Shown here piece after piece: positions 1 through 13,044 of a DNA stretch of 32,971 nucleotides. Under the pieces are notes generated by a model. That model was not told where the DNA came from. It saw only the letters and a program-made list of their open reading frames with translations, and did no database searches. The position numbers were made by a program, and so were the translations under genes. Every line of letters begins with the position of its first letter. The stretch's first letter is position 1. The DNA lies in IMG/VR virus record IMGVR_UViG_3300011116_000404, positions 1 to 32,971 of that record; one strand, written 5' to 3'. Origin of the DNA: a virus.

Positions 1-70
1 TCATGCACTCAGGCATTTGGTTGTTCCAGTTGCGCCCAAGTCGGGCCGGGTCATAGTCCATGCTGATCAT
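1..70 (-). CDS. 5' fragment of an unknown phage protein, cut by window edge
   Basis: Only the first 23 codons are present; the rest lies outside the window. The reading begins MISMDYDPARLGRNWNNQ and has an AAGGAG ribosome site eight bases before the ATG. The start overlaps the stop of the upstream gene (67-501) in an ATGA arrangement, so it continues the leftward operon. It shows that the operon extends beyond this window. No function can be assigned from 23 residues. Confidence 0.6.
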   Translation of the reverse strand, partial: MISMDYDPARLGRNWNNQMPECM

Positions 71-501
71 GTGTTCTTCTCCTTGAGTTTGGCTTCAATG
101 GCGCGAGCAAATGTGTTGGGGGACGATCCAGACTCAAATGTCTTTTTCCAAATGGCTTGAATCTCGTCATCACTCAACGGCTTGCGCTGTGGTGGGGCGG
201 TGTAGAGGGGCACCCACATAGGCTTTCCGTTCCATGTCAACGCTTTTAGCTCGTCGGTTAGCTGTTCTTTGAACTGTGTGCCGTGGCCGGTCTTGAGCAT
301 CCACCACACTGGCTCCGGCTCTAGCTGCTCCAGCGCAGTTCGCAGTGCAGGAACCAATTCCATTGCTTGCTTGATCTCTGGATTTTGATTGTGCGGAGCC
401 ATCAAGACCTCTGCTTTGTCTCTTGCACCGTACCACTTAATAATTTCTTCCAATGCCTCTAGCGCTTGCTTAAGCACTGCGCGGTCTACTGTGATGTTCA
501 T
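67..501 (-). CDS. Hypothetical early phage protein, 144 aa
   Basis: No catalytic motif is visible. The N-terminal half is predicted helical (residues 1-60, rich in Ala, Leu and Glu). The middle holds an aromatic stretch, WWMLKTGHGTQF followed by MWVPLYTAPPQR, and then PLSDDEIQAIWKK near the C-terminus; this style is familiar from accessory proteins of proteobacterial phages. The start is chosen because a GGGGAGAG ribosome site precedes it and because its ATG overlaps the upstream stop as ATGA. It is one of a run of small leftward genes that look translationally coupled. Function unknown. Confidence 0.75.
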   Translation of the reverse strand: MNITVDRAVLKQALEALEEIIKWYGARDKAEVLMAPHNQNPEIKQAMELVPALRTALEQLEPEPVWWMLKTGHGTQFKEQLTDELKALTWNGKPMWVPLYTAPPQRKPLSDDEIQAIWKKTFESGSSPNTFARAIEAKLKEKNT

Positions 502-740
502 TTCTCTCCCCTTGCTCTGATAGCTTCTGCAATGTCATCTGCCGCACGAGGCCCATCCCAAGATTGAATCTCACATATACGTGCACACGCCTCACGCTCG
601 GCCTTGACTGCCTTTGCAATCTTGGTCGCGATGTATTTTTCAACAGGAGCCGTGGCCTTGGCCCAGCTACCACCTCGACCAATAACATCCCATCCTTGGT
701 TGTAGATACCTTCAGCAATTTTGTTTTGTAACGTACTCAT
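498..740 (-). CDS. Small accessory phage protein with AEREACxxIC motif, 80 aa
   Basis: A small mostly helical protein. Its middle carries KAVKAEREACARICE and its end is DDIAEAIRARGEK. A similar AERExCxxxC segment and a similar RARG ending occur in the next gene upstream (737-1021), so the two may share a short domain. The ribosome site AAGGGGAC precedes the ATG, and both ends overlap neighbours by four bases (ATGA). The terminal codons of this gene supply the ribosome-binding site of the following gene. Function unknown; such proteins are common in siphovirus and podovirus accessory regions. Confidence 0.75.
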   Translation of the reverse strand: MSTLQNKIAEGIYNQGWDVIGRGGSWAKATAPVEKYIATKIAKAVKAEREACARICEIQSWDGPRAADDIAEAIRARGEK

Positions 741-1021
741 TCTTGTCCCCTTGCTCTGATATCGTCAACGCATTTGAGCGCATCTTCACAGGCTTTGTTC
801 AAAACTTTCCTCGCGCCCACATTCGGTATGCCGACGGTTTCAATAGCTGCGACAAGATTGCTCACAGCGCCGCATACTTTCTCGCACTTCTCACGCTCGG
901 CAGCGATGCAGTCAAAAACCAATGTGCGGAGCATTAACTGGCCGACACTATCGCCATCAAGGTCAAAATAATCCACAAGACCTTGTTCTTCTGCCATGCG
1001 GATGATGTCTTCGCGGTTCAT
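737..1021 (-). CDS. Small accessory phage protein, paralogue-like to neighbour, 94 aa
   Basis: The protein starts MNREDIIRMAEEQGL and carries AAEREKCEKVCG around residues 40-51, resembling the AEREACARIC block of the gene at 498-740. It ends DDIRARGQE, similar to the neighbour's RARGEK. The start has a GAGGCAGGA ribosome site and overlaps the stop of 1018-1230. The matching blocks suggest descent from a shared small domain or convergent pressure to encode a ribosome site at the gene end. No enzymatic motif is visible. Confidence 0.75.
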   Translation of the reverse strand: MNREDIIRMAEEQGLVDYFDLDGDSVGQLMLRTLVFDCIAAEREKCEKVCGAVSNLVAAIETVGIPNVGARKVLNKACEDALKCVDDIRARGQE

Positions 1022-1230
1022 TCCTGCCTCGCTTTCAACATTGCGTCTGCCATGTCATACGCATCTTTTGCAAATACAGACCACGGCCGCTTAAGCGCTG
1101 GATCGGACAACAGTCCTTGCATCGCCTTGGCAGCAAAGTAATCCCGCAGTGTCATGCCTTGATTGGGGTCACCCCAAGACTCCAAAGGTTTTGTTGTTGG
1201 AAACGCTGGCCCTCCTGTGTTGTCACTCAT
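1018..1230 (-). CDS. Conserved small phage protein (GMTLRDYFAAKAMQ type), 70 aa
   Basis: The central sequence GMTLRDYFAAKAMQGLLSD is a recognisable block of a widespread but uncharacterised family in phages and prophages of Proteobacteria. The N-terminus GGPAFPTT also fits that family. The length of 70 residues is usual for it. It lies between two small genes with four-base overlaps at both ends. The ribosome site is a GGGGAGAG stretch immediately upstream of the ATG. Role unknown; no membrane segment or cysteine pair is seen. Confidence 0.8.
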   Translation of the reverse strand: MSDNTGGPAFPTTKPLESWGDPNQGMTLRDYFAAKAMQGLLSDPALKRPWSVFAKDAYDMADAMLKARQE

Positions 1231-1469
1231 TTCTCTCCCCTCTCCCGCCTTGCTTGGTCAATCGCCTCGGCGATGCGTTCTTCCAGTGGGGCCATCTGCA
1301 CGGGCCTTCCACTCCATGTCTCCCACATCCCACGGCGACGGTCATCAATCGTCAGATCACCATTGGGACTGTCTTTGAGCAACTGACCCATCTCCGGGCA
1401 GCTTGCAGTGAACTTCTTCGGCTCCGGCCCATCAGGGCAGATTGTGAATGTGTACGGTAACTTAGCCAT
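1227..1469 (-). CDS. Hypothetical small phage protein, 80 aa
   Basis: The ATG giving MAKLPYTFTICPDG is preferred to longer frames because GGAGGGGG lies directly before it. The protein contains PEPKKFTASCPEMGQLL and TIDDRRRGMWETWSGRPV, and ends with IDQARRERGEK. The RGEK end again encodes the GAGAGAAATG start context of the gene that follows. It overlaps the upstream gene by eight bases. No domain is recognised, so function is unknown. Confidence 0.7.
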   Translation of the reverse strand: MAKLPYTFTICPDGPEPKKFTASCPEMGQLLKDSPNGDLTIDDRRRGMWETWSGRPVQMAPLEERIAEAIDQARRERGEK

Positions 1470-1674
1470 GAATCCCCCTCCAATAAAACGTAGCCATCTG
1501 ACTGATTGACGCGACTGTTTCTTCATCGGCTTCGGCAACGGAACTCCAGCCGCGCATCCACTGTTTGCCGTCCCACTTTGAAAAACGGATGAACCCGAAT
1601 GCGCGATGGCGTCTTTGATAAACGCCGGGACGAACAGGCTTCGTTGTTGCACCAAACCAAGGTGTGAGTTTCAT
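1462..1674 (-). CDS. Hypothetical phage protein with KPVRPGVYQRR motif, 70 aa
   Basis: Short, basic and aromatic-rich protein. TKPVRPGVYQRR near the N-terminus and WDGKQWMRGW in the centre are typical of a small uncharacterised phage family with several Trp residues. The start codon directly abuts AAGGAG, which is too close for a normal Shine-Dalgarno site, so initiation may rely on the upstream AAAGGC or on coupling with the gene ending at 1671. It overlaps both neighbours. No catalytic motif is visible. Confidence 0.65.
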   Translation of the reverse strand: MKLTPWFGATTKPVRPGVYQRRHRAFGFIRFSKWDGKQWMRGWSSVAEADEETVASISQMATFYWRGIHG

Positions 1675-2129
1675 CTCCTTTTGCCTTTCTTTGTTGGGCC
1701 TTTTGTTACCGACCAGTCAGTATCGTGATTACGATTCATGGTTTTTTGGTATATCAGGTTATTGCGTTTGTTATTGGTGCGGACTTGCATTCGCGCTTTT
1801 TTTAGCTCTACATCTTCGGGGGTCTGGGTTCTAAGCGTGTCATAGTTGCTTGTGGCAAGTTTGCGTAGCAGCTCAACGTCTTTTTCTGGCGGTTGATCCC
1901 AAAGTCTTTCACTGACCTTGGGTAAAAAACTCGCAACAAAAACACGTACCCTGATTGTCCAAGGTAGACCGTAATGGGGAATGCGCTTTAGTTTCGGCTC
2001 GCACTCAAAAAACTCTTTACCTGTGATGGCTTTGAACATGAGCGTGGCACCTGAAACTCGCCTGTCCATCCGCCACGCTTTGATAAGACAGGCATCCCAG
2101 TATTCTTGGGGGCTGCTCGGCAAGTTCAT
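1671..2129 (-). CDS. Hypothetical phage protein with basic tail, 152 aa
   Basis: The chosen start MNLPSSPQEYWDACLIKAWRM overlaps the upstream stop as ATGA and has a GGGTGATGAG context. The N-terminal third is aromatic and charged, the middle contains PHYGLPWTIRVRVFVASFLP, and the C-terminus (MNRNHDTDWSVTKGPTKKGKRR region) is strongly basic, which could allow nucleic-acid contact. I do not recognise a family. It sits between the membrane protein at 2126 and the small gene at 1462. Function unknown. Confidence 0.7.
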   Translation of the reverse strand: MNLPSSPQEYWDACLIKAWRMDRRVSGATLMFKAITGKEFFECEPKLKRIPHYGLPWTIRVRVFVASFLPKVSERLWDQPPEKDVELLRKLATSNYDTLRTQTPEDVELKKARMQVRTNNKRNNLIYQKTMNRNHDTDWSVTKGPTKKGKRR

Positions 2130-2338
2130 CTCATCACCCACCACAAAGCCAAGCAAAACAACGCCGTGATGTACAGGACAATCGCAGACGCAGCGGTTGC
2201 CCGCCGCCCCAGTCTCTCCTCCAGCAGCTTACGCTGCAAGGTCTCCATGTCTCGTGACATCTCGTACCTCCTTGGTGGCTCATAGCGTGAACCAATAAGC
2301 ACCTTGCCGGTGTTAAAGGGTAAGGGTCTGGTGCTCAT
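2126..2338 (-). CDS. Small phage membrane protein, 70 aa
   Basis: The N-terminal part reads TGKVLIGSRYEPPRRYEM, a block seen in many uncharacterised phage proteins, followed by a charged helical stretch (residues 28-46) and one hydrophobic segment of about 20 residues (AASAIVLYITALFCLALWWV, residues 49-68). It is therefore probably an inner-membrane protein with its N-terminus on one side and a very short tail. The start overlaps the stop of the HTH gene (ATGA). It could be a superinfection-exclusion, lysis-accessory or unknown protein; nothing in the sequence decides. Confidence 0.75.
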   Translation of the reverse strand: MSTRPLPFNTGKVLIGSRYEPPRRYEMSRDMETLQRKLLEERLGRRATAASAIVLYITALFCLALWWVMR

Positions 2339-2772
2339 ACCACCCCCGTGAACAGGACGCGCAGTCGTTGTTTAAATGACAGCTTGGGTTCTGGCCCAAC
2401 GTATTGGACTTTGACGTTTTGCAACTCAGGCTTCATGGGCGCAAAATTTTCAGCACGTTGGAGCCGCAAAAATTCATTTGCAGCTTCCAAGTCCTTTTGA
2501 TGTCTTTCCAACGCAGCCTTCTGCTTGAAGGGCTTCAGTTCTTGCTGCTTCTTGTCGTGATAGTTCTGGTTGTACACACACTGAACGTCGCAGCCAATCA
2601 TTGCAGCGATCTGACTGGCTTTGTACCCTTGCTCTCGCAGTATGCGGATGCGCGACGCCAGGGTGGGCGGCTTGGCCTTGCGCTTGGTCTTAGCCTTTGG
2701 CTTGGGGATTGCCTTGCCCAGTTTCGAGTTCAATGAGTTTGTCGATGTAGTGTCTTGCTTTGCGTAAGTCAT
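2335..2772 (-). CDS. Helix-turn-helix DNA-binding protein, 145 aa
   Basis: Residues 22-37 are highly basic (KPKAKTKRKAKPP), and residues 38-70 form a helix-turn-helix-like unit: LASRIRILREQGYKASQIA followed by AMIGCDVQCVYNQNY, the pattern of Hin/MerR-like recognition helices where an alternating helix asks for DNA. A charged, probably coiled segment follows (residues 72-105). It is a candidate regulator of phage or host promoters. The start is supported by a near-perfect AAAGGAGGAATAA ribosome site, although this lies inside the upstream DUF3310 gene, giving an 83-base overlap in another frame. Confidence 0.7.
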   Translation of the reverse strand: MTYAKQDTTSTNSLNSKLGKAIPKPKAKTKRKAKPPTLASRIRILREQGYKASQIAAMIGCDVQCVYNQNYHDKKQQELKPFKQKAALERHQKDLEAANEFLRLQRAENFAPMKPELQNVKVQYVGPEPKLSFKQRLRVLFTGVV

Positions 2773-2920
2773 TTATTCCTCCTTTGTGTTTCCAACGGCT
2801 CAGGTACTTGACGGCATTGCCATCGAAGTAACCCAGGCCCCAGTCGTGGATGACATCCCACGTTTCGTAGTTGAATTGCTTGTAGTGGGTTCCACCCACT
2901 TGCGTTTCGTTGGCTGACAA
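2690..2920 (-). CDS. DUF3310-family protein, 76 aa, TTG start
   Basis: The sequence VGGTHYKQFNYETWDVI, then GLGYFDGNAVKYLSRWKHKG and DLRKARHYIDKLIE, is the diagnostic core of DUF3310, a small phage family that includes proteins related to T7 gp1.7, a reported nucleotide kinase. Nearly the entire protein is this domain, which matches the family's usual length. No in-frame ATG exists before the domain; a TTG codon eight bases after GGAG fits as start. The gene overlaps the start of the HTH gene by 83 bases. A nucleotide-metabolism role is inferred from the family only. Confidence 0.85.
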   Translation of the reverse strand: MSANETQVGGTHYKQFNYETWDVIHDWGLGYFDGNAVKYLSRWKHKGGINDLRKARHYIDKLIELETGQGNPQAKG

Positions 2921-2987
2921 AATCGTTTCTCCAGTAAAAACGCCCTGCTGTTGCAGAGCGTGAAGAGTGATGCGACTACCTCCTTCT

Positions 2988-3239
2988 TTACTCAGTGCGC
3001 CAGACGCGGATGCCGTCAGACACGGTTGCAGTTTGGAACTTGGCTTCGTACTTCTCAAGGAAAGCCTTCTTGGCCACCATGAACTTCCTGCGCCAATTCT
3101 CGGTTTCTTTTTTATTGGTAGGGTCACACGCAATTAAGAAGGAGTCACCTACATCCATTTCAATCAACGGAAACGGTGTGGGTTTACGCCCCTTGCGGTT
3201 GACCACTGGCGGGATGCCAGACTCTACTACAAATGCCAT
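2988..3239 (-). CDS. Small conserved phage protein, 83 aa
   Basis: The protein starts MAFVVESGIPPVVNRKGRKP and contains FPLIEMDVGDSFLIACDPTN, a beta-rich block that recurs in small uncharacterised phage proteins. The C-terminal half is helical and basic (WRRKFMVAKKAFLEKYEAKF) and ends in a strand-like TVSDGIRVWRTE. The layout (basic loop, VGDSF strand, helix, strand) resembles small nucleic-acid-binding folds, but that is inference. An AGGAG site precedes the ATG. It is separated by four bases from the upstream gene. Confidence 0.8.
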   Translation of the reverse strand: MAFVVESGIPPVVNRKGRKPTPFPLIEMDVGDSFLIACDPTNKKETENWRRKFMVAKKAFLEKYEAKFQTATVSDGIRVWRTE

Positions 3240-3243
3240 GTAA

Positions 3244-3594
3244 CTACTCCTGTATTACGTTGGTGTCAAGACGCTTCAATATAGCACTTGCAGTAGCGCC
3301 AAGCAATTCCAACTTTTCTTCTAGGGTTTCTTTACCTGTCTCAAACCAGTAGGTACCTAGCATCTTAGTTCCTATACCAGGAATCTGTACGCCATAACCG
3401 GCTACATCCAAAATGTGCATGCCCTCTCGCATCCACTTGGGTAATTCAAATTTGGCGGATTTGAGTCTATGAATAGCTCTGGCTTTGTTACCTCCGTAAT
3501 AAGGTGGGTACACCGTAATCTCACACCACTGCCCCTCGGAGTCTTCATACAAAGCCACGCGGTAAGTCGTGTCTGGGTCGCGTTCACCAAGCAT
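3244..3594 (-). CDS. Hypothetical phage protein, 116 aa
   Basis: The start MLGERDPDTTYRVALYED is chosen because AAAGGAAC lies properly placed before it; longer frames would run into the hairpin region behind the VWA gene. The protein is beta-rich at first (CEITVYPPYYGG), has a central basic helix (ARAIHRLKSAKFELPKWM) and a C-terminal acidic helix (KETLEEKLELLG). No family is recognised. It lies just after the VWA gene, separated by a 44-base gap containing an inverted repeat and a dispersed 13-bp motif. Confidence 0.75.
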   Translation of the reverse strand: MLGERDPDTTYRVALYEDSEGQWCEITVYPPYYGGNKARAIHRLKSAKFELPKWMREGMHILDVAGYGVQIPGIGTKMLGTYWFETGKETLEEKLELLGATASAILKRLDTNVIQE

Positions 3595-3608
3595 ACTGTT
3601 CCTTTCTA

Positions 3609-3632
3609 GGGACCGGGTGTCAAAGAGACACC
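3609..3632 (-). repeat. Hairpin plus dispersed 13-bp motif behind the VWA gene
   Basis: Bases 3609-3621 read GGGACCGGGTGTC, the exact inverse complement of two copies in the control region (12121-12133 and 12305-12317). The last six bases pair with GACACC at 3627-3632 around a five-base loop. No U-tract follows on the minus strand, so it is not a normal intrinsic terminator. On the minus strand TTTGACACCC presents a TTGACA hexamer, but no convincing -10 element follows. Confidence 0.55.
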
Positions 3633-3638
3633 GAAAAA

Positions 3639-4916
3639 TTAAATGGGGACATAAAGAGTCTTGCCGCTCGGGGCTACGATACCCTTGGTGCTGACGCACC
3701 ACAACACAGGCGCAGACCATCCGTCGCCGCCCCAGTCATGCTCGACGTAACCATCCGTGAAGATGATGATGCAGTCAGGCTTGATGTCTCGGGAGTTCAT
3801 GTAGTCCAGCATCGAGCGCACGCGGGTGCCGCCGCCACCCTTGGGCTTGGTCACTTGAGTCAACTGCTCCACAGCATCGGCCTCATACGTCTCGTGTCCT
3901 GCAACTTGATAGTCCCAGTAAATCACATCGACGCACTCAGGTCGAACGGTATCGCACGCGCCCTTGATCTCAGACAACGCACGCTGAAGTTGTGTGTCGC
4001 CTATGCTGCCTGATGTATCGACGCCGATGGTGATGCGCTTGGCTGCCTCGGTGTAGCGGGATGGCATCTTGATACCCTTGCTCATCCAGCGCCTGGACAA
4101 CCTGCGCCACGTGGACAGATCGTTGCCTGATGCGTGTGTCTTCACGAAGTCTTGCAACACTTCTTGCCAATCAACGCTAACCTCCATCAGCGAATCGAGC
4201 ATGCGGTTGGCGCTGCCTGCAACCTTGCCAGCCATGATGGCACCCTGGCGAATCGCCGTGTCGATCTGGGCATGTAGCTGCTTGACCTCATCATCGCTCA
4301 TCTGTGCAGGGCCGCCACTCGTGTCGTGCTCGTCGAACTCCTGCGCTTGGCCACCTGATGCGCTACGAACGGGAGCACCGTTACCTTTGCCAGCACCGGG
4401 TTGACCGGGGCCGGGCTTGCCTTGTCCAGGCTGACCGTTGCCTGGGTTGGGCTTGTTGGCTGCACCTTGCTGCTTGAGCCTGCGATATACCTCGCCCGTA
4501 TCCATGCCATCGTACTGATGATCAAGCGCAGCATGGGGCCAGATCGTGATGAAGGCATCGCCACCCTGTACCAGCGTCTCATCGAGCAGGTTGTTGATGA
4601 TGATATCGGTGGCAGTGTTGGCGGTCTGGGCATCCTCGTCGAACAGATGCTTCCACATCGTCATATGCATGAACATCAGATGGAAGTACTCATGCAAGAT
4701 TACGAAGCGCAGCGTTGCATCGTCGATGCTGTCCACGAACGCACGGCCAAACATCACGTCACGCCCGTTGGTCGCAGCCGTAGGTATGTCAGACACCACA
4801 CGCCACTCACCGATCATGAGCACGCTGGCTACACCCAGGCAACGATCCTCCTGCATGATCTTGGTACGTTGGCGCAGGATGCGCTCTTCTGCTGTCATTG
4901 TGGTTGGTTGAAACAT
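3639..4916 (-). CDS. VWA-like protein with HExxH metallopeptidase domain (DUF2201 type), 425 aa
   Basis: Two domains are visible. Residues 1-130 hold a zinc-peptidase-like unit: FVILHEYFHLM gives HExxH at 75-79, and ANTATDIIINNLL (99-111) matches the conserved Asp/Asn helix of the DUF2201 N-terminal family. A Gly/Pro/Gln-rich linker spans about 150-205. Residues 295-425 form a von Willebrand A domain with an intact metal site: DTSGS at 300-304, GGGGT at 360-364 and FTDGY at 386-390. It directly follows a MoxR-type ATPase gene by seven bases, the usual partner of such VWA proteins. Likely a cytoplasmic ATPase-adaptor or protease complex; the phage role is unknown. A GAGG ribosome site precedes the ATG. 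Confidence 0.9.
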   Translation of the reverse strand: MFQPTTMTAEERILRQRTKIMQEDRCLGVASVLMIGEWRVVSDIPTAATNGRDVMFGRAFVDSIDDATLRFVILHEYFHLMFMHMTMWKHLFDEDAQTANTATDIIINNLLDETLVQGGDAFITIWPHAALDHQYDGMDTGEVYRRLKQQGAANKPNPGNGQPGQGKPGPGQPGAGKGNGAPVRSASGGQAQEFDEHDTSGGPAQMSDDEVKQLHAQIDTAIRQGAIMAGKVAGSANRMLDSLMEVSVDWQEVLQDFVKTHASGNDLSTWRRLSRRWMSKGIKMPSRYTEAAKRITIGVDTSGSIGDTQLQRALSEIKGACDTVRPECVDVIYWDYQVAGHETYEADAVEQLTQVTKPKGGGGTRVRSMLDYMNSRDIKPDCIIIFTDGYVEHDWGGDGWSAPVLWCVSTKGIVAPSGKTLYVPI

Positions 4917-4923
4917 ACTGGCC

Positions 4924-5994
4924 TCACTTCATGATCCAATGATTGGCGTTCACCCAATCGGTGAACTGTTTGATGCTGGCACACTTGGCTGCCTTGGCCG
5001 GAATCTTGAGCACGCCACGGGCGAAGATGCACTGCATCTCCTTGGGCAAACGCTCGATGTACTCCAGCACAGGGATGAGCGTCTCGGGTGTGACGCGGGT
5101 GATGGCACGATGCACCGTCATCATCATGGCTGCTGCGTTGTTCTTAGGCACAGGCGCAACGTCAGGTGCGTTGATGATCGTGTCCCAGGCAGGGAGCTTG
5201 TCAGCCAAGTCAACGAACGCCATCAGGTCAAGCGCGGCACGGGGTCCGATGTTGCCAGCAATCGCTGCCAGGGTCACTGCGTTATCGCCCACTGCACTGC
5301 GCCGATCCTCACGCAACTCAAGCGATGAGAGGAACAACGAGCGAGGAGTCACGAACGACTTGCGCTGCTCCTTGGGGTGGAATATCACCGGGTTGTCAGC
5401 CGGGTCCTCTACGTCCTCGAACGACTGGAACAGCGACGGGGTCTCGTTCGCCCACGCCAGCATCGCATGGTGTACGCCATGCTCCAGCGCCCACTCGATC
5501 CACTCGGTGTTGTTTGCGAAGCGCATCTTGAGGAACGACACACGGTTGCGTGCATGGGGTTGGAACAGATCGCCTACACCTTCAGCGCCCAGGTTGGTCG
5601 CACCCATGACGATGCTACCCTCAGGCAGGGGCTTCATACCTACACGATGCTCAAGCATGATGGGCAGCAGGGCGTTCTGCACAGGGCGTGGTGCCTTGCC
5701 GATCTCATCGAGCAGGATGAACATGGGCTTGCTGCCGTCACCCACGAACAACACGTTAGGCAGGAACCGTGTGACCATCTGCTCACGATCCGTGTCAGGA
5801 ACCTGAATGTCACCCACGTCAAGCTGCGTGCAGTCCACTGTAATGTAGTTGTACTTGTCACCCACCAGCGTGCGGACAACCTGCGGGATGCTGGACTTGC
5901 CTGAACCCATCGGCCCTTCAACGATGTAGGTCTTGTCCATGCCGTTGACAGAGATGAGCTTGGCGATCTGGTTGATTGATAGACGTAAGTCCAT
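4924..5994 (-). CDS. MoxR/CobS-type AAA+ ATPase, 356 aa
   Basis: An AAA+ ATPase of the MoxR class. Walker A is GPMGSGKSS at residues 27-35, Walker B is MFILLDEIGKAP at 91-102, sensor 1 is GATNL at 131-135, and HARNRV near 147-152 is a good arginine-finger candidate. MoxR ATPases work with VWA proteins to remodel or insert cofactors into target complexes; here the VWA partner is the very next gene. The upstream gene is DUF3150-like, a common third member. The start uses CAAGGAGAG, which is joined to a GTTTAACTGG palindrome at 6008-6023. Targets in the infected cell are unknown. Confidence 0.92.
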   Translation of the reverse strand: MDLRLSINQIAKLISVNGMDKTYIVEGPMGSGKSSIPQVVRTLVGDKYNYITVDCTQLDVGDIQVPDTDREQMVTRFLPNVLFVGDGSKPMFILLDEIGKAPRPVQNALLPIMLEHRVGMKPLPEGSIVMGATNLGAEGVGDLFQPHARNRVSFLKMRFANNTEWIEWALEHGVHHAMLAWANETPSLFQSFEDVEDPADNPVIFHPKEQRKSFVTPRSLFLSSLELREDRRSAVGDNAVTLAAIAGNIGPRAALDLMAFVDLADKLPAWDTIINAPDVAPVPKNNAAAMMMTVHRAITRVTPETLIPVLEYIERLPKEMQCIFARGVLKIPAKAAKCASIKQFTDWVNANHWIMK

Positions 5995-6007
5995 GGTATC
6001 TCTCCTT

Positions 6008-6023
6008 GTTTAACTGGTTAAAT
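6008..6023. promoter_or_regulatory. GTTTAAC palindrome fused to the ATPase gene's ribosome site
   Basis: GTTTAACTGGTTAAAT is a near-perfect 16-bp palindrome (arms TTTAAC/GTTAAA). On the minus strand it is immediately followed by the AAGGAGAG ribosome site of the MoxR gene. Near-identical elements occur at 7856 and 10166 in the same position relative to a start codon, and a perfect version lies at 12098. It may be an operator or an RNA hairpin element. Confidence 0.7.
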
Positions 6024-6982
6024 TACAGTGCGAACTTGTCGATGATGTTTTGCATCGCACTGCGGGTGGACTCTTGCAACGCTTTGCTTTCTTTCAGTGA
6101 ATCAATGTCGATGCGAGTGAGCGTGCGCTCCAGCATCTGTCGTGCCTCCTCTAGCTTGGGGTCGTTGGTGATATTGAGATCGCGCAGCAGGCCACACAAC
6201 TCAAGCCCCTGGTCCAGCATAGACTCGTGCAGCTTGGGACGGCGTGCCTTCTTGATGGTGACCTTGAGCACGTTGCCCTCGTCGTCTACCTCCTTGATCT
6301 CTTCGGTGGCATCGGGGTCATGCTTGAGCACGGCATCCATACGTTCACGCACCCACTCAACTTGCTGCTTCACGCGGTCCCACGTACTGGCCAAGGCAGC
6401 AGCCACACGCGCCTCGACGATACCCTCATGCCGGGTCTGCAATTCCTGCAACGCTTCGGTGGCAATGTCTAGACGGAAGTCGCCAGCCATGGGGATGGGC
6501 GAGACCACAAGGTTGAAGTAGAACTTGTCCTTGATCTGACTCTCGGGCGGGTACTCGCTGCGATCAAAGAATGCACCGTTCTCAAACGCTTGCTTGCTGA
6601 CCTCGGTGGTGTACACGTTGCAGAATATCTGCACCAGATCGTTGAAGCGTTTCTCATACTTGGCAGCGTCGGCCATGATCTCCATGTACGAAGAGGTTGT
6701 GATGATGCGCCCGCCGTTGTCATCCCATGGCAGCGTGACGTTGTTGTACCAGTGGCGCACCTCACCACGCAAAGACTTGATCGCCTCCAGTGCAGGTGAC
6801 TCACTGAACAGATGCTTGTGCACGGATGCAGCACGCTTGGAGCGTGCGCCCTTGGCAGCGCCAACCTCGGCCTCAGTCTTCTTGTCTTTCTTGCGTGCCT
6901 CCCACACGCCGATATTCAGGTAGCCCAGCATGGATGCTGATGCGATGGATGGAAGGTTCGCTATAGCTGCGTTCTTATTCAT
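6023..6982 (-). CDS. DUF3150-like phage protein, 319 aa
   Basis: The segment NNVTLPWDDNGGRIITTSSY (residues 80-99), then EYPPESQIKDKFYF (143-156) and SPIPMAGDFRLDI (161-173) follow the pattern of DUF3150 proteins, in which a TLPW-D-G-R motif precedes a PxxGDFR motif. The remainder is helical with long charged coiled-coil segments (180-235, 270-315). In phages and mobile elements this family is found beside MoxR-type ATPase and VWA genes, as here. The start MNKNAAIANL is favoured by an AAGGAGAG site. The assignment is from recalled motifs; a profile search would settle it. Biochemical function unknown. Confidence 0.7.
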   Translation of the reverse strand: MNKNAAIANLPSIASASMLGYLNIGVWEARKKDKKTEAEVGAAKGARSKRAASVHKHLFSESPALEAIKSLRGEVRHWYNNVTLPWDDNGGRIITTSSYMEIMADAAKYEKRFNDLVQIFCNVYTTEVSKQAFENGAFFDRSEYPPESQIKDKFYFNLVVSPIPMAGDFRLDIATEALQELQTRHEGIVEARVAAALASTWDRVKQQVEWVRERMDAVLKHDPDATEEIKEVDDEGNVLKVTIKKARRPKLHESMLDQGLELCGLLRDLNITNDPKLEEARQMLERTLTRIDIDSLKESKALQESTRSAMQNIIDKFAL

Positions 6983-6984
6983 GA

Positions 6985-7221
6985 TTACTCTCCTTGGAAT
7001 GTGATGAAGCAAACTTGGTTAACCCCGTAAGGGCGAAGCTCAATTATATCACTATTGTCTATGGTTATACAACGATGGCCTGACCATCCGATCTCACGCT
7101 TTACCCTACGCACAATGGAGTACGTAGACAGGCAATCAATCACGTCAATGACGTGTCGTTTAACCCACGAGTAATTGGCCTCGTGTCCGAACGTGTCAGT
7201 GACTTCGATGTTGACTTTCAT
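6985..7221 (-). CDS. Hypothetical small phage protein, 78 aa
   Basis: The start MKVNIEVTDTFGHEANYSWV is chosen because AAAGGAG lies eight bases upstream. The sequence is predicted alpha/beta: a strand, a helix at KRHVIDVIDCLSTYSIVRRV, and strands containing HRCITIDNSDIIEL and QVCFITFQ. No catalytic motif or family is recognised. It lies two bases upstream of the DUF3150-like gene, probably cotranscribed. AT content is a little higher than that of its neighbours. Confidence 0.7.
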   Translation of the reverse strand: MKVNIEVTDTFGHEANYSWVKRHVIDVIDCLSTYSIVRRVKREIGWSGHRCITIDNSDIIELRPYGVNQVCFITFQGE

Positions 7222-7232
7222 GTGTTCTCCTT

Positions 7233-7454
7233 TCAAGCCTGATACTTCAGCTTTGCATGGGCAGCGTCGTAAATCTCATCGACAAGTGATGAGCGTCCAC
7301 TGAACAGGAACTCTGCGTCGTACCCGTCGCAGGTTAGCCAAAGAAAGTTAATGTCAGCAGGATCGCCGGGATGCTCTGCCGTTGCAGGTGTACTGGGAAG
7401 GTAGGCGACCTCTGCCTTGAAGAGCAGACCCAGTGCGTTGAATGTGATCTTCAT
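7233..7454 (-). CDS. Hypothetical small phage protein, 73 aa
   Basis: The start MKITFNALGLLFKAEVAYLP is supported by AAGGAGGAAG six bases before the ATG and by overlap with the previous stop (ATGA). The protein looks beta-rich with INFLWLTCDGYDAEFLF at the centre and a helical C-terminus (LVDEIYDAAHAKLKYQA). No family known to me. One of four short consecutive genes between the peptidase and the ATPase module. Confidence 0.7.
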   Translation of the reverse strand: MKITFNALGLLFKAEVAYLPSTPATAEHPGDPADINFLWLTCDGYDAEFLFSGRSSLVDEIYDAAHAKLKYQA

Positions 7455-7669
7455 TTGCTTCCTCCTTCGCTCTGCTTTTTCTGCCACTCTTTGTAGTCCA
7501 TCGCTTGCTCGTACGCATCTTGAAAGTGGTCTTTGAACGCCTGCATGAGGATCGCTTTGTTGCTGCTATCTGCGATGTGCCACAGTTGGGCAAGCGTGCG
7601 GTTGAACGATCCGCCGCAGCGGTCGAAGTGTGCACAGGCGGTGTACATCATCTTTTCAGTTAACTTCAT
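7451..7669 (-). CDS. Hypothetical small phage protein, 72 aa
   Basis: Helical, charged protein starting MKLTEKMMYTACAHFDRCGG, with a second helix LAQLWHIADSSNKAILMQAF and an acidic-basic C-terminus (YKEWQKKQSEGG). Its start overlaps the stop of the 58-residue gene upstream as ATGA, and AAGGAGAAAG supplies the ribosome site. Two cysteines (12 and 18) could bind metal with His14, but this is speculation. Function unknown. Confidence 0.7.
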   Translation of the reverse strand: MKLTEKMMYTACAHFDRCGGSFNRTLAQLWHIADSSNKAILMQAFKDHFQDAYEQAMDYKEWQKKQSEGGSK

Positions 7670-7842
7670 TTGCTTTCTCCTTCATTGCGTTTCATCCAAT
7701 ACTCTCTTGCCCACATCGCCTGGAGCAGGGCAAGTCCGGCATAGTCCACAGTGATCAGGTTGTCACGTTGCGCCCTGTCCACTGCAAACTTGGTGCGCCG
7801 AGCCATGTACTCATGGAACGGCAGGTCAAACAACTCATTCAT
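7666..7842 (-). CDS. Unannotated 58-aa phage protein
   Basis: A short frame reading MNELFDLPFHEYMARRTKFA, then a segment VDRAQRDNLITVDYAGLALL, ending WMKRNEGESK. It is supported by CAAGGAGAAG before its ATG and by a four-base ATGA overlap with the gene at 7451-7669. Its ribosome site is joined to the GTTTAACTGG palindrome at 7856-7871, as for two other genes of this operon. It is helical and amphipathic; function unknown. Confidence 0.7.
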   Translation of the reverse strand: MNELFDLPFHEYMARRTKFAVDRAQRDNLITVDYAGLALLQAMWAREYWMKRNEGESK

Positions 7843-7855
7843 TTCGCTTCTCCTT

Positions 7856-7871
7856 GTTTAACTGGTTAAAC
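7856..7871. promoter_or_regulatory. GTTTAAC palindrome fused to a ribosome site (copy 2)
   Basis: GTTTAACTGGTTAAAC has seven-base inverted arms separated by TG. On the minus strand it lies directly between the stop of the zinc peptidase gene (7872) and the CAAGGAGAAG ribosome site of the 58-residue gene. Same placement as copies at 6008 and 10166. Confidence 0.72.
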
Positions 7872-8942
7872 TCAGTGCATCTGTGCTGTGTCGCACAGTT
7901 CATCAAGCAAATACAGGGCAGGTTCACCGCCCCATAGCTTGTCTTCTACATGCTCCAGCACCTCGTCGGTCAGGGCATGGCGGTTGATCATCTTCTTGGC
8001 AAACTCCACATCCTGTGGGTAGATGTGCTTGGCAAGCAAGCGCACCAGTGGACCCGTGGCTCCGCGCAGTGCGTCGTCCAGGGCATCGAGTAACTCATCC
8101 TCTAGTGTGTACTCACCTCGCTGGGTGGGGTGCCACTCACCCCATGCTTCATACGTACTCTCCTGCACCATGGGGTCACGCTCGGTGGGCAGCGCATCCC
8201 AGTCGATACGCACGGCAGCATCAGCCAGCCGCTCCAGGTACTGCACGTCAAGCGATTCGCCTGCACCATGCGCCCCAGCGTAGCCGACCGAGACGTTGGT
8301 GCACTCGGGGATGAAGTCAACGAACTCTGCGGTGTCAGTGTAAATACCAGTATCGTCAGGTGATAGCAGCAGGAAGTCAGGGTGTACATCATTGAGCGCA
8401 GTCGCAAGCGCAGCGGCGAACGTATCGGAGCAGCACCGACCCCAGCCTTGGTGCGTGATCACATCAGTCATACCCTTGCGATCGAACGCGATGGCACGAT
8501 CAAACTCCATGAGCATCTCATTGTCGTGGTCAGCGAGGTGCTTGGCACCGATGCCGCCGCACTCCTCACCCTGGGTGAAGATGTAGTAGCCCGGCACATC
8601 AGACCAGAGCATGTGAAACAGCAAGGCTACACCTGCGCCGTCATCTGCACCGAGGCACGAACCACCGGCTGCGCTCCACGTTTGTGCAGTCTTGGCCACA
8701 GGGTTGGCACCGTCTTGTCTGTGCACCGAGTCCAGGTGGGCGACGAACAGCGTGCGGTTGGTCTGGGCTTTGCGATTGTCGATGTGCAGGTTGTCCGCAC
8801 TGTCGAGGAAGATATAAGGTTGGCATCGCTCGGGCAAGTTGTCAGTCAGCCACATCATGAGTTCCCATACACCTGCGCCACCATGTGGGCGAGCCAGGGT
8901 CAATGCACGATCAAGTGCAGCGTAGAGTTTGGTTGTGTTCAT
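7872..8942 (-). CDS. M20/M28-like zinc metallopeptidase, 356 aa
   Basis: All ligands expected for the co-catalytic two-zinc aminopeptidase/carboxypeptidase fold (MH clan, families M20, M28 and M42) are visible: HLD at 69-71, GADDGAG with the bridging Asp at 100 or 101, GEECGG with Glu126-Glu127, AFDRKG with Asp154, and GAHGAGES with His225. The final 110 residues are an extra helical acidic region absent from minimal peptidases. It probably trims peptides in the host cytoplasm; no signal peptide is seen. A GGAGGAAGT ribosome site is encoded in the end of the upstream gene, whose stop it overlaps by four bases. Its phage role is unclear. Confidence 0.85.
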   Translation of the reverse strand: MNTTKLYAALDRALTLARPHGGAGVWELMMWLTDNLPERCQPYIFLDSADNLHIDNRKAQTNRTLFVAHLDSVHRQDGANPVAKTAQTWSAAGGSCLGADDGAGVALLFHMLWSDVPGYYIFTQGEECGGIGAKHLADHDNEMLMEFDRAIAFDRKGMTDVITHQGWGRCCSDTFAAALATALNDVHPDFLLLSPDDTGIYTDTAEFVDFIPECTNVSVGYAGAHGAGESLDVQYLERLADAAVRIDWDALPTERDPMVQESTYEAWGEWHPTQRGEYTLEDELLDALDDALRGATGPLVRLLAKHIYPQDVEFAKKMINRHALTDEVLEHVEDKLWGGEPALYLLDELCDTAQMH

Positions 8943-10153
8943 ACTTCCTCCGATTGTTCTTCCAGATATTCCTTGGCCGTATCACTGTCGGGGTGATAAG
9001 TCTGCCCATCGATCTCGACATACTCTTCATCGTTGCTGTACCAGTCACCTGAGTCAGCGCACTGCCATGCCTCGTCTTGGTGTTCGTAGTCACCATTGGC
9101 AAGCTCGACGATCTCGTTATCTTCCAGATAATCCAAGTCGTAGTACTCGTCCTGCGAGTCGATGTAAATCACTTCGCTTTCATGGGCGTAGTACCGACTA
9201 CCACGTCGACCGTATGCCATGCGGTAGTTGTTATCGCAGCATCTCTCGCAGACATGTCGATCCTCGCAGCGACCAACCCAGTACCCATCGCCCTCATCGA
9301 ACCGTTCTTCGCAGTCCTCACAGATCTCGCCTGCGTTGACCGTACCGTCGGTGTTCGTGCACTCATACTCACCGCCCGATGTGATGCGCAAGTACCGCTC
9401 ACCTGACTCATACCGTATGTCCACGCTCTGCACTGAGCCGTCAAGATACGGAGCGACGAACCCGTTACCATACCGAGGCTCGATGTAGTCCAGCGTGCAG
9501 TCTTCCCAATCATCGCGCTTCTCGTAACCCTGGTCCTTGAGCCACGCCTCCAGCGTCTCGTCGGTGTAGCTATACCCATCGCCCTTCTTGTACGAGCGAA
9601 CGAAGAACTTAGCCTCGCCGTCATCCATGCACAGGGCACGGCCTACTGTGTCGTCAGCATCCACACGCACCGCCATGTGCCAACCACGCGCCGGGTTGTA
9701 GACGTTGTACGGGTGCTCCTCGGGGTTGCGCCACTCCTTGGCCATGCACGAGCCTGGGCCACGCAGCAGGTGGAAAAGCATCTCAGCCATTGTGTGCACA
9801 AGTTTGCACGACTCAGGCGCAGCCAGGGCTACGAGGTCACGGATCTTATGGTCAGGCATGCCGGGAAAATGTCGCGTTAAGTACTTGCCCAGTGTGGTCA
9901 CGGTCTGCCGATCTGCCTCGCCCGAACGCTCGTCACGGGTATACGCTACCTTGGCACGAGCCCCATCGTCTGGGATGTGGGGATACTCAAGGGTCAACTG
10001 GTGCCAGTCAGCAGGTACATGACCTGCATCAAGTGCACGGATCACAAACGGATGCAGCTTGGCTTGGGCACGCTCTCGTGCATACCATGAACGGTATTTC
10101 GAGATGATAAAAGCCAGTTCAAAAACACGGTTCGTAGACTCTGCGGTATTCAT
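8939..10153 (-). CDS. Large cysteine-rich acidic phage protein, 404 aa
   Basis: The protein has a helical N-terminus (1-130), a middle part with GPGSCM and HPYNVYNPARGWHMAVR (132-163), and a zinc-ribbon or RING-like knot: Cys278-x2-Cys281, Cys296, Cys302-x2-Cys305 plus nearby His300. The last 90 residues are extremely acidic and tyrosine-rich, with repeated Asp/Glu/Tyr runs that could mimic DNA. The start has an AGGAGAG site joined to a GTTTAAC palindrome. It is the first large gene after the leader, so it is made early in quantity. Possible host-factor or DNA-mimic inhibitor; no assigned family. Confidence 0.75.
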   Translation of the reverse strand: MNTAESTNRVFELAFIISKYRSWYARERAQAKLHPFVIRALDAGHVPADWHQLTLEYPHIPDDGARAKVAYTRDERSGEADRQTVTTLGKYLTRHFPGMPDHKIRDLVALAAPESCKLVHTMAEMLFHLLRGPGSCMAKEWRNPEEHPYNVYNPARGWHMAVRVDADDTVGRALCMDDGEAKFFVRSYKKGDGYSYTDETLEAWLKDQGYEKRDDWEDCTLDYIEPRYGNGFVAPYLDGSVQSVDIRYESGERYLRITSGGEYECTNTDGTVNAGEICEDCEERFDEGDGYWVGRCEDRHVCERCCDNNYRMAYGRRGSRYYAHESEVIYIDSQDEYYDLDYLEDNEIVELANGDYEHQDEAWQCADSGDWYSNDEEYVEIDGQTYHPDSDTAKEYLEEQSEEV

Positions 10154-10165
10154 ATTAACTCTCCT

Positions 10166-10181
10166 GTTTAACTGGTTAAAT
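10166..10181. promoter_or_regulatory. GTTTAAC palindrome fused to a ribosome site (copy 3)
   Basis: GTTTAACTGGTTAAAT, read on the minus strand as ATTTAACCAGTTAAAC and continued by AGGAGAG, sits just before the 404-residue gene. Third copy of the same palindrome-plus-ribosome-site unit in this operon. Confidence 0.7.
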
Positions 10182-10201
10182 TAACTCTGCGGTTTTGGTC
10201 T

Positions 10202-10378
10202 TCATTCTTTCTCTCCGGTCATTTCATACAGTTCATTGAGCCGCCGATGCACTGACTCAAGCAAGGTTTGCACGTGGTTACGCTTGCTAAGACTGTCTAG
10301 GTTATTCAGTGCAAACTTCACGCGGTCACGCATACTGGCAAGCTCGATGTGCCATTGGTACTCTTGTCCTTCGTCCAT
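10202..10378 (-). CDS. Small helical phage protein, 58 aa, first gene of leftward operon
   Basis: The start MDEGQEYQWHIELASMRDRV is supported by AAGGAGAG eight bases before the ATG; an eight-codon longer frame would use GTG-like context inside the leader hairpins. The rest is helical (FALNNLDSLSKRNHVQTLLE and RRLNELYEMTGEKE) and probably coiled. It is the first coding sequence after the 400-base structured leader, so its translation may be affected by two alternative hairpins at 10404-10448. Function unknown. Confidence 0.7.
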   Translation of the reverse strand: MDEGQEYQWHIELASMRDRVKFALNNLDSLSKRNHVQTLLESVHRRLNELYEMTGEKE

Positions 10379-10724
10379 CTCATCTCTCCTTCGCAGCACC
10401 ATGCTGCCTTAAAGCACCAGCCTTAAGGCAGGGGACCGTATCCCCTGCGGTTTATGTGCCGACCGTTTCGCGGGAAGCTATTACTCACACTGTCAGATGT
10501 TCCGCCCCAACGGTGGCCCCGCCGTGACTGTCACATTCCACCCACCACAGGGACGACTTACGCAAGACACACAGGTCTGCTACGTTGAAGTGATAAGGCA
10601 GCCGAACGTCGTACCCAGGGATCACTCCCTGCGCTTGTGTACGCTTAGACGCACACCTAGTTCTGACAGCGTACTGAATAGCTACGCTATGGCAGCCGGG
10701 TGCTAACCGGCTGCGCTGATGATG

Positions 10725-10737
10725 AATTGTTAAAGAG
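10725..10737 (-). promoter_or_regulatory. boxA-like antitermination element
   Basis: The minus strand reads CTCTTTAACAATT, identical over 13 bases to the boxA region in Escherichia coli rRNA leaders (TGCTCTTTAACAATTTA). BoxA RNA binds NusB/S10. A perfect eight-pair hairpin begins ten bases downstream, mimicking the boxA-boxB order of lambda nut sites. Confidence 0.7.
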
Positions 10738-10744
10738 TGGTTGA

Positions 10745-10760
10745 GTTATCTGGAGATAAA
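10745..10760. promoter_or_regulatory. GTTATC palindrome, operator candidate (copy 1)
   Basis: GTTATCTGGAGATAAA is an imperfect 16-bp palindrome located about 25-40 bases after the predicted transcription start of the leftward promoter, a normal place for a repressor roadblock. Related copies lie at 12181-12196 and 13029-13044. Confidence 0.6.
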
Positions 10761-10792
10761 CCCCGTCGATAAATAAATCCCAACCAGACTCT

Positions 10793-10821
10793 ATTATGCC
10801 ATATAACGTAGGGTTTGTCAA
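10793..10821 (-). promoter_or_regulatory. Sigma70-type promoter for the leftward operon
   Basis: On the minus strand a perfect TTGACA (10816-10821) is separated by 17 bases from CATAAT (10793-10798), which matches TATAAT at five of six positions. Transcription should start near 10786 and run leftward through the boxA leader into the operon. The -35 hexamer overlaps the stop codon of the gene at 10818-11732. Confidence 0.8.
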
Positions 10822-11732
10822 CCCCCTAAAGCGTCATACCATTTCGTCTTATGCGTCGCATCCCATTCCTTCCAGCGTCTGCGCATGTCGTCAGTGTCCA
10901 TCGCGGCTTTGAGGCGTAGCCTGTCCCCGGTGCCCTCGATCATGCGCTGGGCCATACGTGACATGAGCAGCACGTTGCTCGGTGCGGCAGGTTTGTCCAC
11001 ATCTTTACGCCCCACACGCACCGACGCCAGCGCGTTCGGACTGTCGTAGTTCAGCGGTATCCCAAGCACCGGGCAGACGGTTGGCAGTTCGCCTCGCACG
11101 TACAGATCAGTGATCTTGAACGAACAGACCATGCGCTCGGGGTTGCTTCGGACGCGGTTACATGCACGCTTGACGGCAGCATACCTGGGGTCCATCCTGC
11201 GCAGCTTGGACGCGCTGTCTTGAGCAGCGGCTGCCTTCTTGGGCGGAGCGATCTTGATACCGGCTGCGCCGAGGGCTTTCTTGATGGTCATGGGTTTGGC
11301 ATCAAACTCCAGTGCGATGCGTGACAGGATGGCGGCCTGAGTCCAATCCTTCTTTTCCAACTCACCATAACGCGAGAGCATGGCGTCGGTGCGCATGTCG
11401 CGCCGAGCGGCGTCGTGGTGTTTGCCTGTCATTGCACGTGCAACGGCTATGCCCTGAATCATTAGACTGCATGATTGGGGCCACTCTAGGGGGATTTCGG
11501 ACTGATGGGCATCGGGCGGGACGTGCTGTGTCAGCAATAGGAAGTCTTTATACCAAGCCCATTTCGCCATGAATTTGCCTAGGAACATGACGTAGTCTTC
11601 GCTTCCACGCATTATCGGCAGGGGCAATCCATGAACGGCCTTTAGATTTAAGGAGTTGGAGCGAAATCTAGGACGCAAATTCTGATCAAGGTAAACCCTG
11701 AGTACAAGGTATTCGGGAGTGCAAAAATTCAT
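10818..11732 (-). CDS. HNH/endonuclease-VII-like or DNA-binding phage protein, 304 aa
   Basis: The C-terminal part has CPVLGIPLNYDSPN (about residues 219-232 from the ATG chosen) followed by a segment ending SNVLLMSRMAQRMIEG. This resembles small phage endonucleases in which a Cys-Pro-x-x-Gly-x-Pro-Leu loop precedes an Asn-Val-x-x-x-Ser helix; however the usual DR(I/V)D motif is replaced by VRVGRKDVD, so catalysis is doubtful. The middle (WTQAAILSRIALEFDAKPMT) looks like a helix-turn-helix. Starting at ATG 11732 is preferred over the upstream TTG at 11789; ribosome site weak (GAGAAC). Probably DNA-binding. Confidence 0.6.
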   Translation of the reverse strand: MNFCTPEYLVLRVYLDQNLRPRFRSNSLNLKAVHGLPLPIMRGSEDYVMFLGKFMAKWAWYKDFLLLTQHVPPDAHQSEIPLEWPQSCSLMIQGIAVARAMTGKHHDAARRDMRTDAMLSRYGELEKKDWTQAAILSRIALEFDAKPMTIKKALGAAGIKIAPPKKAAAAQDSASKLRRMDPRYAAVKRACNRVRSNPERMVCSFKITDLYVRGELPTVCPVLGIPLNYDSPNALASVRVGRKDVDKPAAPSNVLLMSRMAQRMIEGTGDRLRLKAAMDTDDMRRRWKEWDATHKTKWYDALGG

Positions 11733-12097
11733 ATTGTTCTCGCTGTTCTTAAAAGTTCCGGTGTTGGGAACGGAGAGGAGGGAAGGCAAGTGCTTGTGGG
11801 GGCACTTGATTATGGGGGGTGGGCGTGGAAGTTTTGCATTGTTCTGTTGTTTCGGAAATCAATAGGCGGCTGGAAGGGGGGTAGGGTCAAAACCCGGAAA
11901 ATTCTACTCCCGAAAAGAAAAAAGCGTACTAGGGTCAAACCCTACTTCTTCTCCTCATCCTCTTACTCATATATATAGAACTTGGAACAATTAAAGCACA
12001 CTGCTTTTTTCAAGCTGTGCATCAACAACTTAGCGCACTGCCTCCGTTCCAACTCGAAAGAACTGTTCGGAACATTCGGAACAACAACAAAAACACA

Positions 12098-12113
12098 GTT
12101 TAACGCGTTAAAC
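12098..12113. promoter_or_regulatory. Perfect GTTTAACGCGTTAAAC palindrome
   Basis: A perfect 16-bp palindrome sharing seven-base arms with the three elements fused to ribosome sites at 6008, 7856 and 10166, but here in the non-coding control region without a gene start beside it. This favours DNA-level recognition by a dimeric protein. Confidence 0.7.
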
Positions 12114-12120
12114 TCCCCCC

Positions 12121-12133
12121 GACACCCGGTCCC
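12121..12133. repeat. Dispersed 13-bp motif, copy A
   Basis: GACACCCGGTCCC, repeated exactly at 12305-12317 and inverted at 3609-3621. Located eight bases from the perfect GTTTAAC palindrome. Confidence 0.6.
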
Positions 12134-12180
12134 GCGCAGAATAATGCCCTGCGCTTATCCACGCACGCTATTGCGTGTCA

Positions 12181-12196
12181 GTTATCTGGAGATAAC
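12181..12196. promoter_or_regulatory. GTTATC palindrome, operator candidate (copy 2)
   Basis: GTTATCTGGAGATAAC has perfect seven-base arms around GG. It is the best copy of a three-member family (others at 10745 and 13029). Confidence 0.65.
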
Positions 12197-12242
12197 TCGG
12201 TCTGGCTCGCGTGGTGGCCTGCGCCGTCGCGCCCGCGTGCTG

Positions 12243-12301
12243 GCGTGCTAGCCTCGCGTGCTAGCCTCGCGTGCTAGCCTCGCGTGCTAGCCTCGCGTGC
12301 T
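12243..12301. repeat. Tandem array of a 13-bp unit
   Basis: Four exact head-to-tail copies of GCGTGCTAGCCTC (12243-12255, 12256-12268, 12269-12281, 12282-12294) plus seven bases of a fifth. Each unit contains the palindrome GCTAGC. Iterated units of this size next to operator palindromes fit an iteron-like protein-binding array or origin; polymerase slippage alone is also possible. Confidence 0.8.
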
Positions 12302-12304
12302 CTT

Positions 12305-12336
12305 GACACCCGGTCCCTGCCTCAAAAAGCAGGGAC
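12305..12336. repeat. Dispersed 13-bp motif copy B, overlapping a hairpin
   Basis: GACACCCGGTCCC (12305-12317) runs into an eight-pair hairpin, GTCCCTGC (12313-12320) with GCAGGGAC (12329-12336). It follows a TTGACA hexamer on the plus strand, without a clear -10 partner. Confidence 0.55.
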
Positions 12337-12337
12337 G

Positions 12338-12363
12338 AAAAAAAGCCCCGCCGAAGCGGGGCT
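12338..12363 (-). terminator. Intrinsic terminator with UUCG tetraloop
   Basis: On the minus strand AGCCCCGC, TTCG and GCGGGGCT form an eight-pair GC-rich stem followed by seven T residues. It lies 17 bases after the stop of the gene at 12381-12953, ending its transcript. Confidence 0.88.
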
Positions 12364-12380
12364 GGGTTAGGGTTGGAAGG

Positions 12381-12953: not shown

Positions 12954-13028
12954 TTTAACTCTCCGGTTTTGATTGATGAAACGTAGGATCAAATGCCCTA
13001 CACTATTGGAATGATAGTGTTTGTTGTG

Positions 13029-13044
13029 TTTATCTCCGGATAAC
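13029..13044. promoter_or_regulatory. GTTATC palindrome, operator candidate (copy 3)
   Basis: TTTATCTCCGGATAAC on the plus strand (GTTATCCGGAGATAAA inverse) differs at one position from copy 1. It lies between the divergent gene starts, next to a G-rich structure candidate. Confidence 0.58.

Follow-up and report, generated by a model that had tools for sequence, protein, structure and literature searches.

The stretch of viral DNA analysed here (the window; 32,971 nucleotides, positions 1 to 32,971 of IMG/VR record IMGVR_UViG_3300011116_000404) carries three adjacent genes, all on the minus strand between positions 3639 and 6982, which code for a DUF3150-like protein, a MoxR-type AAA+ ATPase and a protein combining a metallopeptidase-like domain with a von Willebrand factor A (VWA) domain. 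On balance, the trio appears to be a single ATP-driven protein-remodelling machine, probably proteolytic, that serves the early or replication programme and not particle assembly. An initial annotation of the window had given the coordinates and strand of the three genes correctly, and its proposal of remodelling or proteolysis is consistent with a module whose sites are intact. New in this work are the three-part composition of the module with DUF3150, the conservation of its HExxH motif and its assignment to the replication or early block of mobile elements.

Gene layout and selection

The three genes of the window are the following.

6023-6982, minus strand: DUF3150-like protein, 319 amino acids, with two long helices (96-138 and 175-220)
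4924-5994, minus strand: MoxR-type AAA+ ATPase, 356 amino acids (Pfam AAA_5; PHROG 1297, 2e-45)
3639-4916, minus strand: metallopeptidase-VWA protein, 425 amino acids (Pfam DUF2201_N and DUF2201; PHROG 1314, 6e-81)

They are transcribed in the order DUF3150-like gene, ATPase gene, VWA gene, with gaps of 28 and then 7 nucleotides, and clear ribosome-binding sites are found at the starts of the first two (CAAGGAGAGTAATCATG and CAAGGAGAGATACCATG). All three genes are intact and under strong purifying selection: against the sister contig L002, whose DNA is 97% identical around the trio, the ratio of nonsynonymous to synonymous substitution rates (dN/dS, computed from measured dN and dS) is 0.014 for the VWA gene, 0.042 for the ATPase gene and 0.011 for the DUF3150-like gene.

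The metallopeptidase-VWA protein

Pfam assigns to this protein the DUF2201_N (6e-23; 82.2 bits versus a cut-off of 23.2) and DUF2201 (1e-13; 52 bits versus 26.4) families. Its N-terminal, zincin-like domain contains an HExxHxxxxH motif at residues 75-84 (H75, E76, H79, H84) together with conserved D104 and N108, while the C-terminal VWA domain has a complete metal-ion-dependent adhesion site (MIDAS; D300, S302, S304, T364, D388). HExxH arises by chance in about 1.3% of shuffled copies of the protein, so that the motif alone is weak evidence and its conservation is strong evidence. The initial annotation had singled out non-conservation of HExxH in homologues as the observation to look for; both HExxHxxxxH and MIDAS are kept in 60/60 distinct full-length VWA proteins, which were taken from loci reached via DUF3150 and not via VWA in order to avoid bias. 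Across 72 viral VWA proteins H75, E76, H79, H84, D104 and N108 are invariant or nearly so, and identity to the protein of the window is 22-42% in a diverse sample of relatives. The D, S, S and D of the MIDAS are present in all 99 aligned relatives, with T364 replaced by S in five; the VWA protein of locus L007 has one additional residue within the HExxH motif. The protein is probably a metal-dependent protease.

The AlphaFold model of the protein has a predicted local distance difference test (pLDDT) score of 82, with a linker (about residues 151-200) of low confidence (block pLDDT 46-65). Phage copies, unlike those of Burkholderiales, share a conserved D195-x-H197 in this linker, which may have a regulatory or metal-binding role. 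In Foldseek the first match is the Midasin MIDAS domain (3.9e-5), and NorD is found at 1e-3; the matches from fold searches with this model are filled by the VWA domain. PHROG 1314 and many RefSeq homologues of gp25 (the VWA protein of phage N4) carry the name 'HNH endonuclease', an identity rejected for the window's protein, which has only metallopeptidase and VWA domains and no Pfam HNH match at E<=0.1; the label is probably a propagated misannotation.

The AAA+ ATPase and the DUF3150-like protein

The ATPase matches Pfam AAA_5 above the cut-off (5.8e-5), and its motifs comprise Walker A (G27..G32-K33), Walker B (D96-E97) and the conserved residues N134, R151 and R218. Walker A is found in 57/57 relatives and the Walker B pattern in 56 of the 57; thus the ATPase motifs, like the MIDAS and HExxH, are present and conserved in relatives, in agreement with the initial annotation, which had called the three sites intact. 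Compared as a profile with the PDB, the ATPase is nearest to the AAA domains of Midasin (6e-25), and NorQ is found at 6.6e-5.

The family search suggested in the same annotation, which placed AAA_5, DUF2201_N and DUF2201 above their cut-offs, gave for the first protein of the trio a score of 24.3 bits with Pfam DUF3150 (PF11348), 0.6 bits short of the curated cut-off of 24.9, and for this reason it is named DUF3150-like. The assignment is supported by family-wide matches: PF11348 is matched by 33 of 44 aligned family members (E<=0.01), and hhalign against two plasmid DUF3150 proteins (pCAR1/R478) gives a probability of 95.3% and an E value of 2.3e-8. These profile comparisons argue firmly for homology of the whole group with DUF3150 proteins. 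Two Burkholderia genomes have the gene for a DUF3150 homologue, and the Pfam search missed it in both; the model is therefore too narrow for this branch, and negatives obtained with it were not used. The structure model of the DUF3150-like protein has a pLDDT of 88; its BFVD matches are phage DUF3150 proteins, and Foldseek gives no PDB match at E<=0.001. Top matches in VIA-align were generic helical bundles (Z 9.3 and below) and were set aside, as were sequence matches to apolipoproteins, read as amphipathic-helix noise.

Conservation of the trio in viral contigs and phages

Deep alignments being too divergent to seed scans, pairs of nearer relatives were used, and a scan of viral contigs seeded with a DUF3150 pair alignment gave 327 relatives, of which 80 were kept; 77 distinct viral loci were examined. 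All three genes are found in 64 of them, on one strand and with a median span of 3.6 kb; each of the remaining 13 breaks off, at a contig end, close to where the missing gene would be expected, and is apparently incomplete for that reason. The order is ATPase-VWA-DUF3150 in 44 loci, DUF3150-ATPase-VWA, as in the window, in 12 and ATPase-DUF3150-VWA in 8; since gene order varies among loci, the three genes have stayed linked despite rearrangement. Possible further components are two families of about 296 (L043:8846-9736) and 312 amino acids (L087:4269-5207), neither with a Pfam or PHROG match, which adjoin the trio in 28 and 33 of the viral loci, respectively.

Sequence searches rarely detect DUF3150 in isolated phages. 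It is present in three records of cyanophages (MinM2, Pag-Yong1 and Pra-JY27), all of the same length, and the trio was read in MinM2; Tunturi_3 has a DUF3150 gene, with no VWA gene or matching ATPase gene within the 12.6 kb examined. ATPase/VWA pairs lacking a detectable DUF3150 are widespread; the VWA protein has matches in 560 phage records, N4-like phages included.

Plasmid versions of the trio

Homologues of DUF3150 occur in about 40 plasmid records. In IncP-7 pCAR1 and IncHI2 R478 the order is ATPase-DUF3150-VWA, all in one direction, and the VWA proteins (L145:20527-22341 and L146:43769-45775), which carry the annotation NorD or VWA protein, combine an HExxH in the N-terminal part (HECSH at 57, HEAGH at 70) with a MIDAS in the C-terminal part. 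No mention of this N-terminal HExxH was found in the available parts of the literature. Profile comparison of the window-type with the pCAR1/R478 VWA proteins is weak (E 0.0054, probability 6.7%), and the two are aligned exactly on HExxH. Genes for MobH, RecT and SSB are found near the trio of pCAR1.

In the two Burkholderiales plasmids examined the trio has a PRTRC cassette on one side and type IV secretion genes on the other, and in Simplicispira other genes are interspersed with it. The Burkholderiales trio is 5-10 kb from the PRTRC cassette, which comprises ParB, ThiF-type and associated proteins (L012:2969-8849 and L013:3178-9085). A Paraburkholderia plasmid-type set of four copies (L013:20896-22191, L125:8899-10239, L126:6452-7792 and L127:8899-10209) has LKxxQ in place of HExxH, with D104 and N108 changed too and MIDAS kept. 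The joint loss of HExxH, D104 and N108 suggests that D104 belongs to the same site as HExxH. The module can therefore persist without this site; since a plasmid clade that lost it entirely has kept both MIDAS and trio, proteolysis can probably be separated from the remaining activity.

Replication block and virion block

The early operon assumed in the initial annotation was borne out, as the trio lies in a non-structural block of early or replication type. Among the viral loci PolA is on the strand of the trio in 52/52, an Hjc-like nuclease in 49/49 and an Exo5-like nuclease in 25/25; conversely, the terminase large subunit (TerL) is on the opposite strand in 19/19. In the window the separate packaging and virion block is marked by the terminase gene, and terminase, portal and head genes occupy the plus strand from 13.9 kb onward.

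13867-15414, plus strand: terminase large subunit (PHROG 38, 4.8e-104)

Absence of the trio from related phages had also been named in the initial annotation as an observation to look for: the trio recurs in DUF3150 viral contigs with enough flanking sequence, and it was not found in some virion relatives, which have a different replication block. No trio is seen in DSL-LC04 (complete), in 023Pt_psg01 beyond its first 3.7 kb or in the first 50 kb of HTVC027P (57.6 kb in total); these three share 55-56% identity in TerL with a trio phage, and only about 22-24% in PolA. CRP-902 (complete), with a TerL 34% identical, has no trio either. The distances of the trio proteins correlate with those of PolA at 0.79-0.92.

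The trio thus seems not to belong to the virion programme, because its neighbours are those of the PolA strand, because it was not found in relatives with a close TerL and because it is present in plasmids, which make no particles. Its recurrence in phage replication blocks and in conjugative plasmids therefore suggests that it acts on the incoming genome, and not in particle building.

Comparison with known systems

The initial annotation had regarded the function of the trio in phages as not described, which is true in part. The ATPase/VWA pair was already known from phage N4 (gp24/gp25), jumbo phages and pCAR1, while the DUF3150 component is undescribed in the literature found: full-text search for DUF3150 and phage gave no paper, and no description of DUF3150 as a component of an ATPase/VWA module was found.

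In N4, gp24 is reported as an ATPase and gp25 as a vWFA or metallopeptidase protein, neither with a known function (PMC2784036, PMC6992544), and no functional test of them was found in the accessible literature, main texts of two phage functional-genomics studies included. Like the trio, gp24/gp25 and their homologues in Schitoviridae are a homologous ATPase and VWA protein encoded close together, in a non-structural region near the DNA polymerase; in Presley the pair is also near exonuclease V, with no DUF3150 detected in the region read. Identity of the N4-type proteins to those of the window is low, 24-29%. A chaperone pair of MoxR and a vWA protein fused to a metallopeptidase has been described in jumbo phages of group 2.2, and virion assembly and processing were proposed for it (PMC7824862). 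The two-protein architecture is the same, with the peptidase domain N-terminal to VWA, and DUF3150 is not mentioned in the available parts of that report (PMC7824862); the proposed virion role is not favoured by the distribution of the trio found here.

As for plasmids, the MoxR and VWA genes of pCAR1 were noted in 2009, in a gene group conserved in R478, Rts1, SXT and R391 (PMC2642839). The MOBH plasmids pCAR1 and R478 share with the window the three components in one direction, the N-terminal HExxH, the C-terminal MIDAS and a homologous DUF3150; their VWA proteins are longer (604-668 amino acids versus 425 in the window) and strongly diverged. MoxR-vWA pairs with a third component have also been described as conflict systems (PMC7159879). 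Four third components are named there (VMAP, iSTAND, FtsH, beta-propeller); in place of these, Pfam, searched without dedicated VMAP profiles, gives DUF3150 for the window.

The nearest solved relatives by sequence or fold are NorQ-NorD (cryo-EM, PMC13036017) and Midasin, in which an AAA+ ATPase is likewise combined with a MIDAS/VWA domain. Their targets are cellular, namely nitric oxide (NO) reductase and the pre-60S ribosome. To our knowledge, neither has an HExxH peptidase domain or a DUF3150 partner.

Proposed mechanism and alternative explanations

By analogy with NorQ-NorD and Midasin, the ATPase would form a ring on which the VWA domain docks, with the MIDAS metal holding a partner or target, and ATP hydrolysis would pull on the target or on the linker. 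The HExxH domain, carried on the flexible linker, could then clip the pulled protein, and DUF3150, largely helical with two long helices, may be an adaptor or scaffold. The target would be a protein met during replication or recombination of the incoming genome, such as a DNA-bound protein or a host factor, as suggested by the company of the genes: PolA, Hjc-like and Exo5-like nucleases in phages, and MobH, RecT and SSB in pCAR1. Many phage contigs and broad families of conjugative plasmids retain a trio with a probable protease core; this distribution shifts its expected job from particle building, as proposed earlier, to early genome work, and gives the module a named third component, DUF3150.

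A more specific and rather doubtful proposal is that phages and conjugative plasmids share a dedicated MoxR/HExxH-VWA/DUF3150 machine that strips or cuts proteins on incoming or replicating DNA. If true, it would be a counterpart in kind, on mobile elements, to the way in which cells clear protein obstacles from DNA; with a DNA-bound protein as target, a new general step would be added to how mobile elements establish themselves.

Some observations weigh against a remodelling machine made of all three proteins and tied to replication. In locus L100 a cut VWA gene is on the strand opposite to DUF3150, the sole exception in orientation. In Presley, an N4-like phage, and in phage G the pair occurs with no detectable DUF3150 in the regions read, and therefore DUF3150 is not obligatory for every pair. 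The distances of the trio proteins also correlate with those of TerL, at 0.68-0.77 (16 loci), and inside the trio clade the mirror-tree test separates the trio from neither PolA nor TerL.

Among the alternatives, a protease for host takeover or anti-defence, which recognises, unfolds and cuts a host or defence protein, had been suggested in the initial annotation. An early-type operon and a conserved HExxH would suit such a role, as would the presence of the trio in both phages and conjugative plasmids, which all face host defences. No specific evidence for it emerged, however: none of the three proteins has a PADLOC match at E<=0.1, a weak argument since PADLOC lists defence genes, and the trio is more like a stable component of the replication block (PolA distance correlation 0.79-0.92) than like a patchy, fast-changing accessory; moreover, HExxH is lost in some plasmid copies. 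This explanation is thus considered unlikely.

Even less credible is a virion-assembly chaperone that also processes structural proteins by proteolysis. Such a role was proposed for the pair of jumbo phages (PMC7824862), where, in the available parts, an archaeal-virus MoxR-VWA system needed for tail assembly is cited as well; the terminase on the opposite strand in all 19 loci, the failure to find the trio in virion relatives with a TerL 55-56% identical and its presence in conjugative plasmids all speak against it. A chaperone that inserts a metal or cofactor into a metalloenzyme of phage or host, as NorQ-NorD or CobS-CobT do, with HExxH holding a metal and not cutting peptides, is improbable too, as DNA polymerase and nucleases are constantly found next to the trio and no metalloenzyme was seen among its constant neighbours, although ATPase and VWA protein are related to NorQ and NorD by fold and sequence and a plasmid homologue is annotated as NorD.

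Other features of the window

Upstream of the trio, the same minus-strand block contains a peptidase-like gene, listed here as a neighbour of the module.

7872-8942, minus strand: M28/M20-type peptidase-like gene (Peptidase_M28 1.9e-4, barely above cut-off; PHROG 4191, 7.7e-66)
6001-6022, minus strand: leader of the ATPase gene, 22 nucleotides, a palindrome followed by a ribosome-binding site; identical copy at 7849-7870

The perfect palindrome TTTAAC-NN-GTTAAA occurs four times in the window (6009-6022, 7857-7870, 10167-10180 and 12099-12112; 0.02 expected). Three copies are located 13-14 nucleotides upstream of start codons, those of the ATPase gene, the 7842 gene and the 10153 gene, beside the ribosome-binding site, and sister contig L002 also holds three copies; the palindrome resembles an operator, or a leader element, shared by a regulon. 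The gene at 8939-10153, which shares the palindrome leader with the ATPase gene, encodes an acidic protein of 404 amino acids with several Cys-x2-Cys pairs and without a Pfam match. Searches of the window found no RNA families or tRNA genes, and no promoter excess was seen within positions 1-14000.

Within the structural block, positions 23081-23593 encode a likely HNH endonuclease (PHROG 1492, 5.9e-27), possibly a homing endonuclease, and positions 29011-30105 a protein made of SETASGVDSVSAAQTFA-type repeats followed by short GW repeats.

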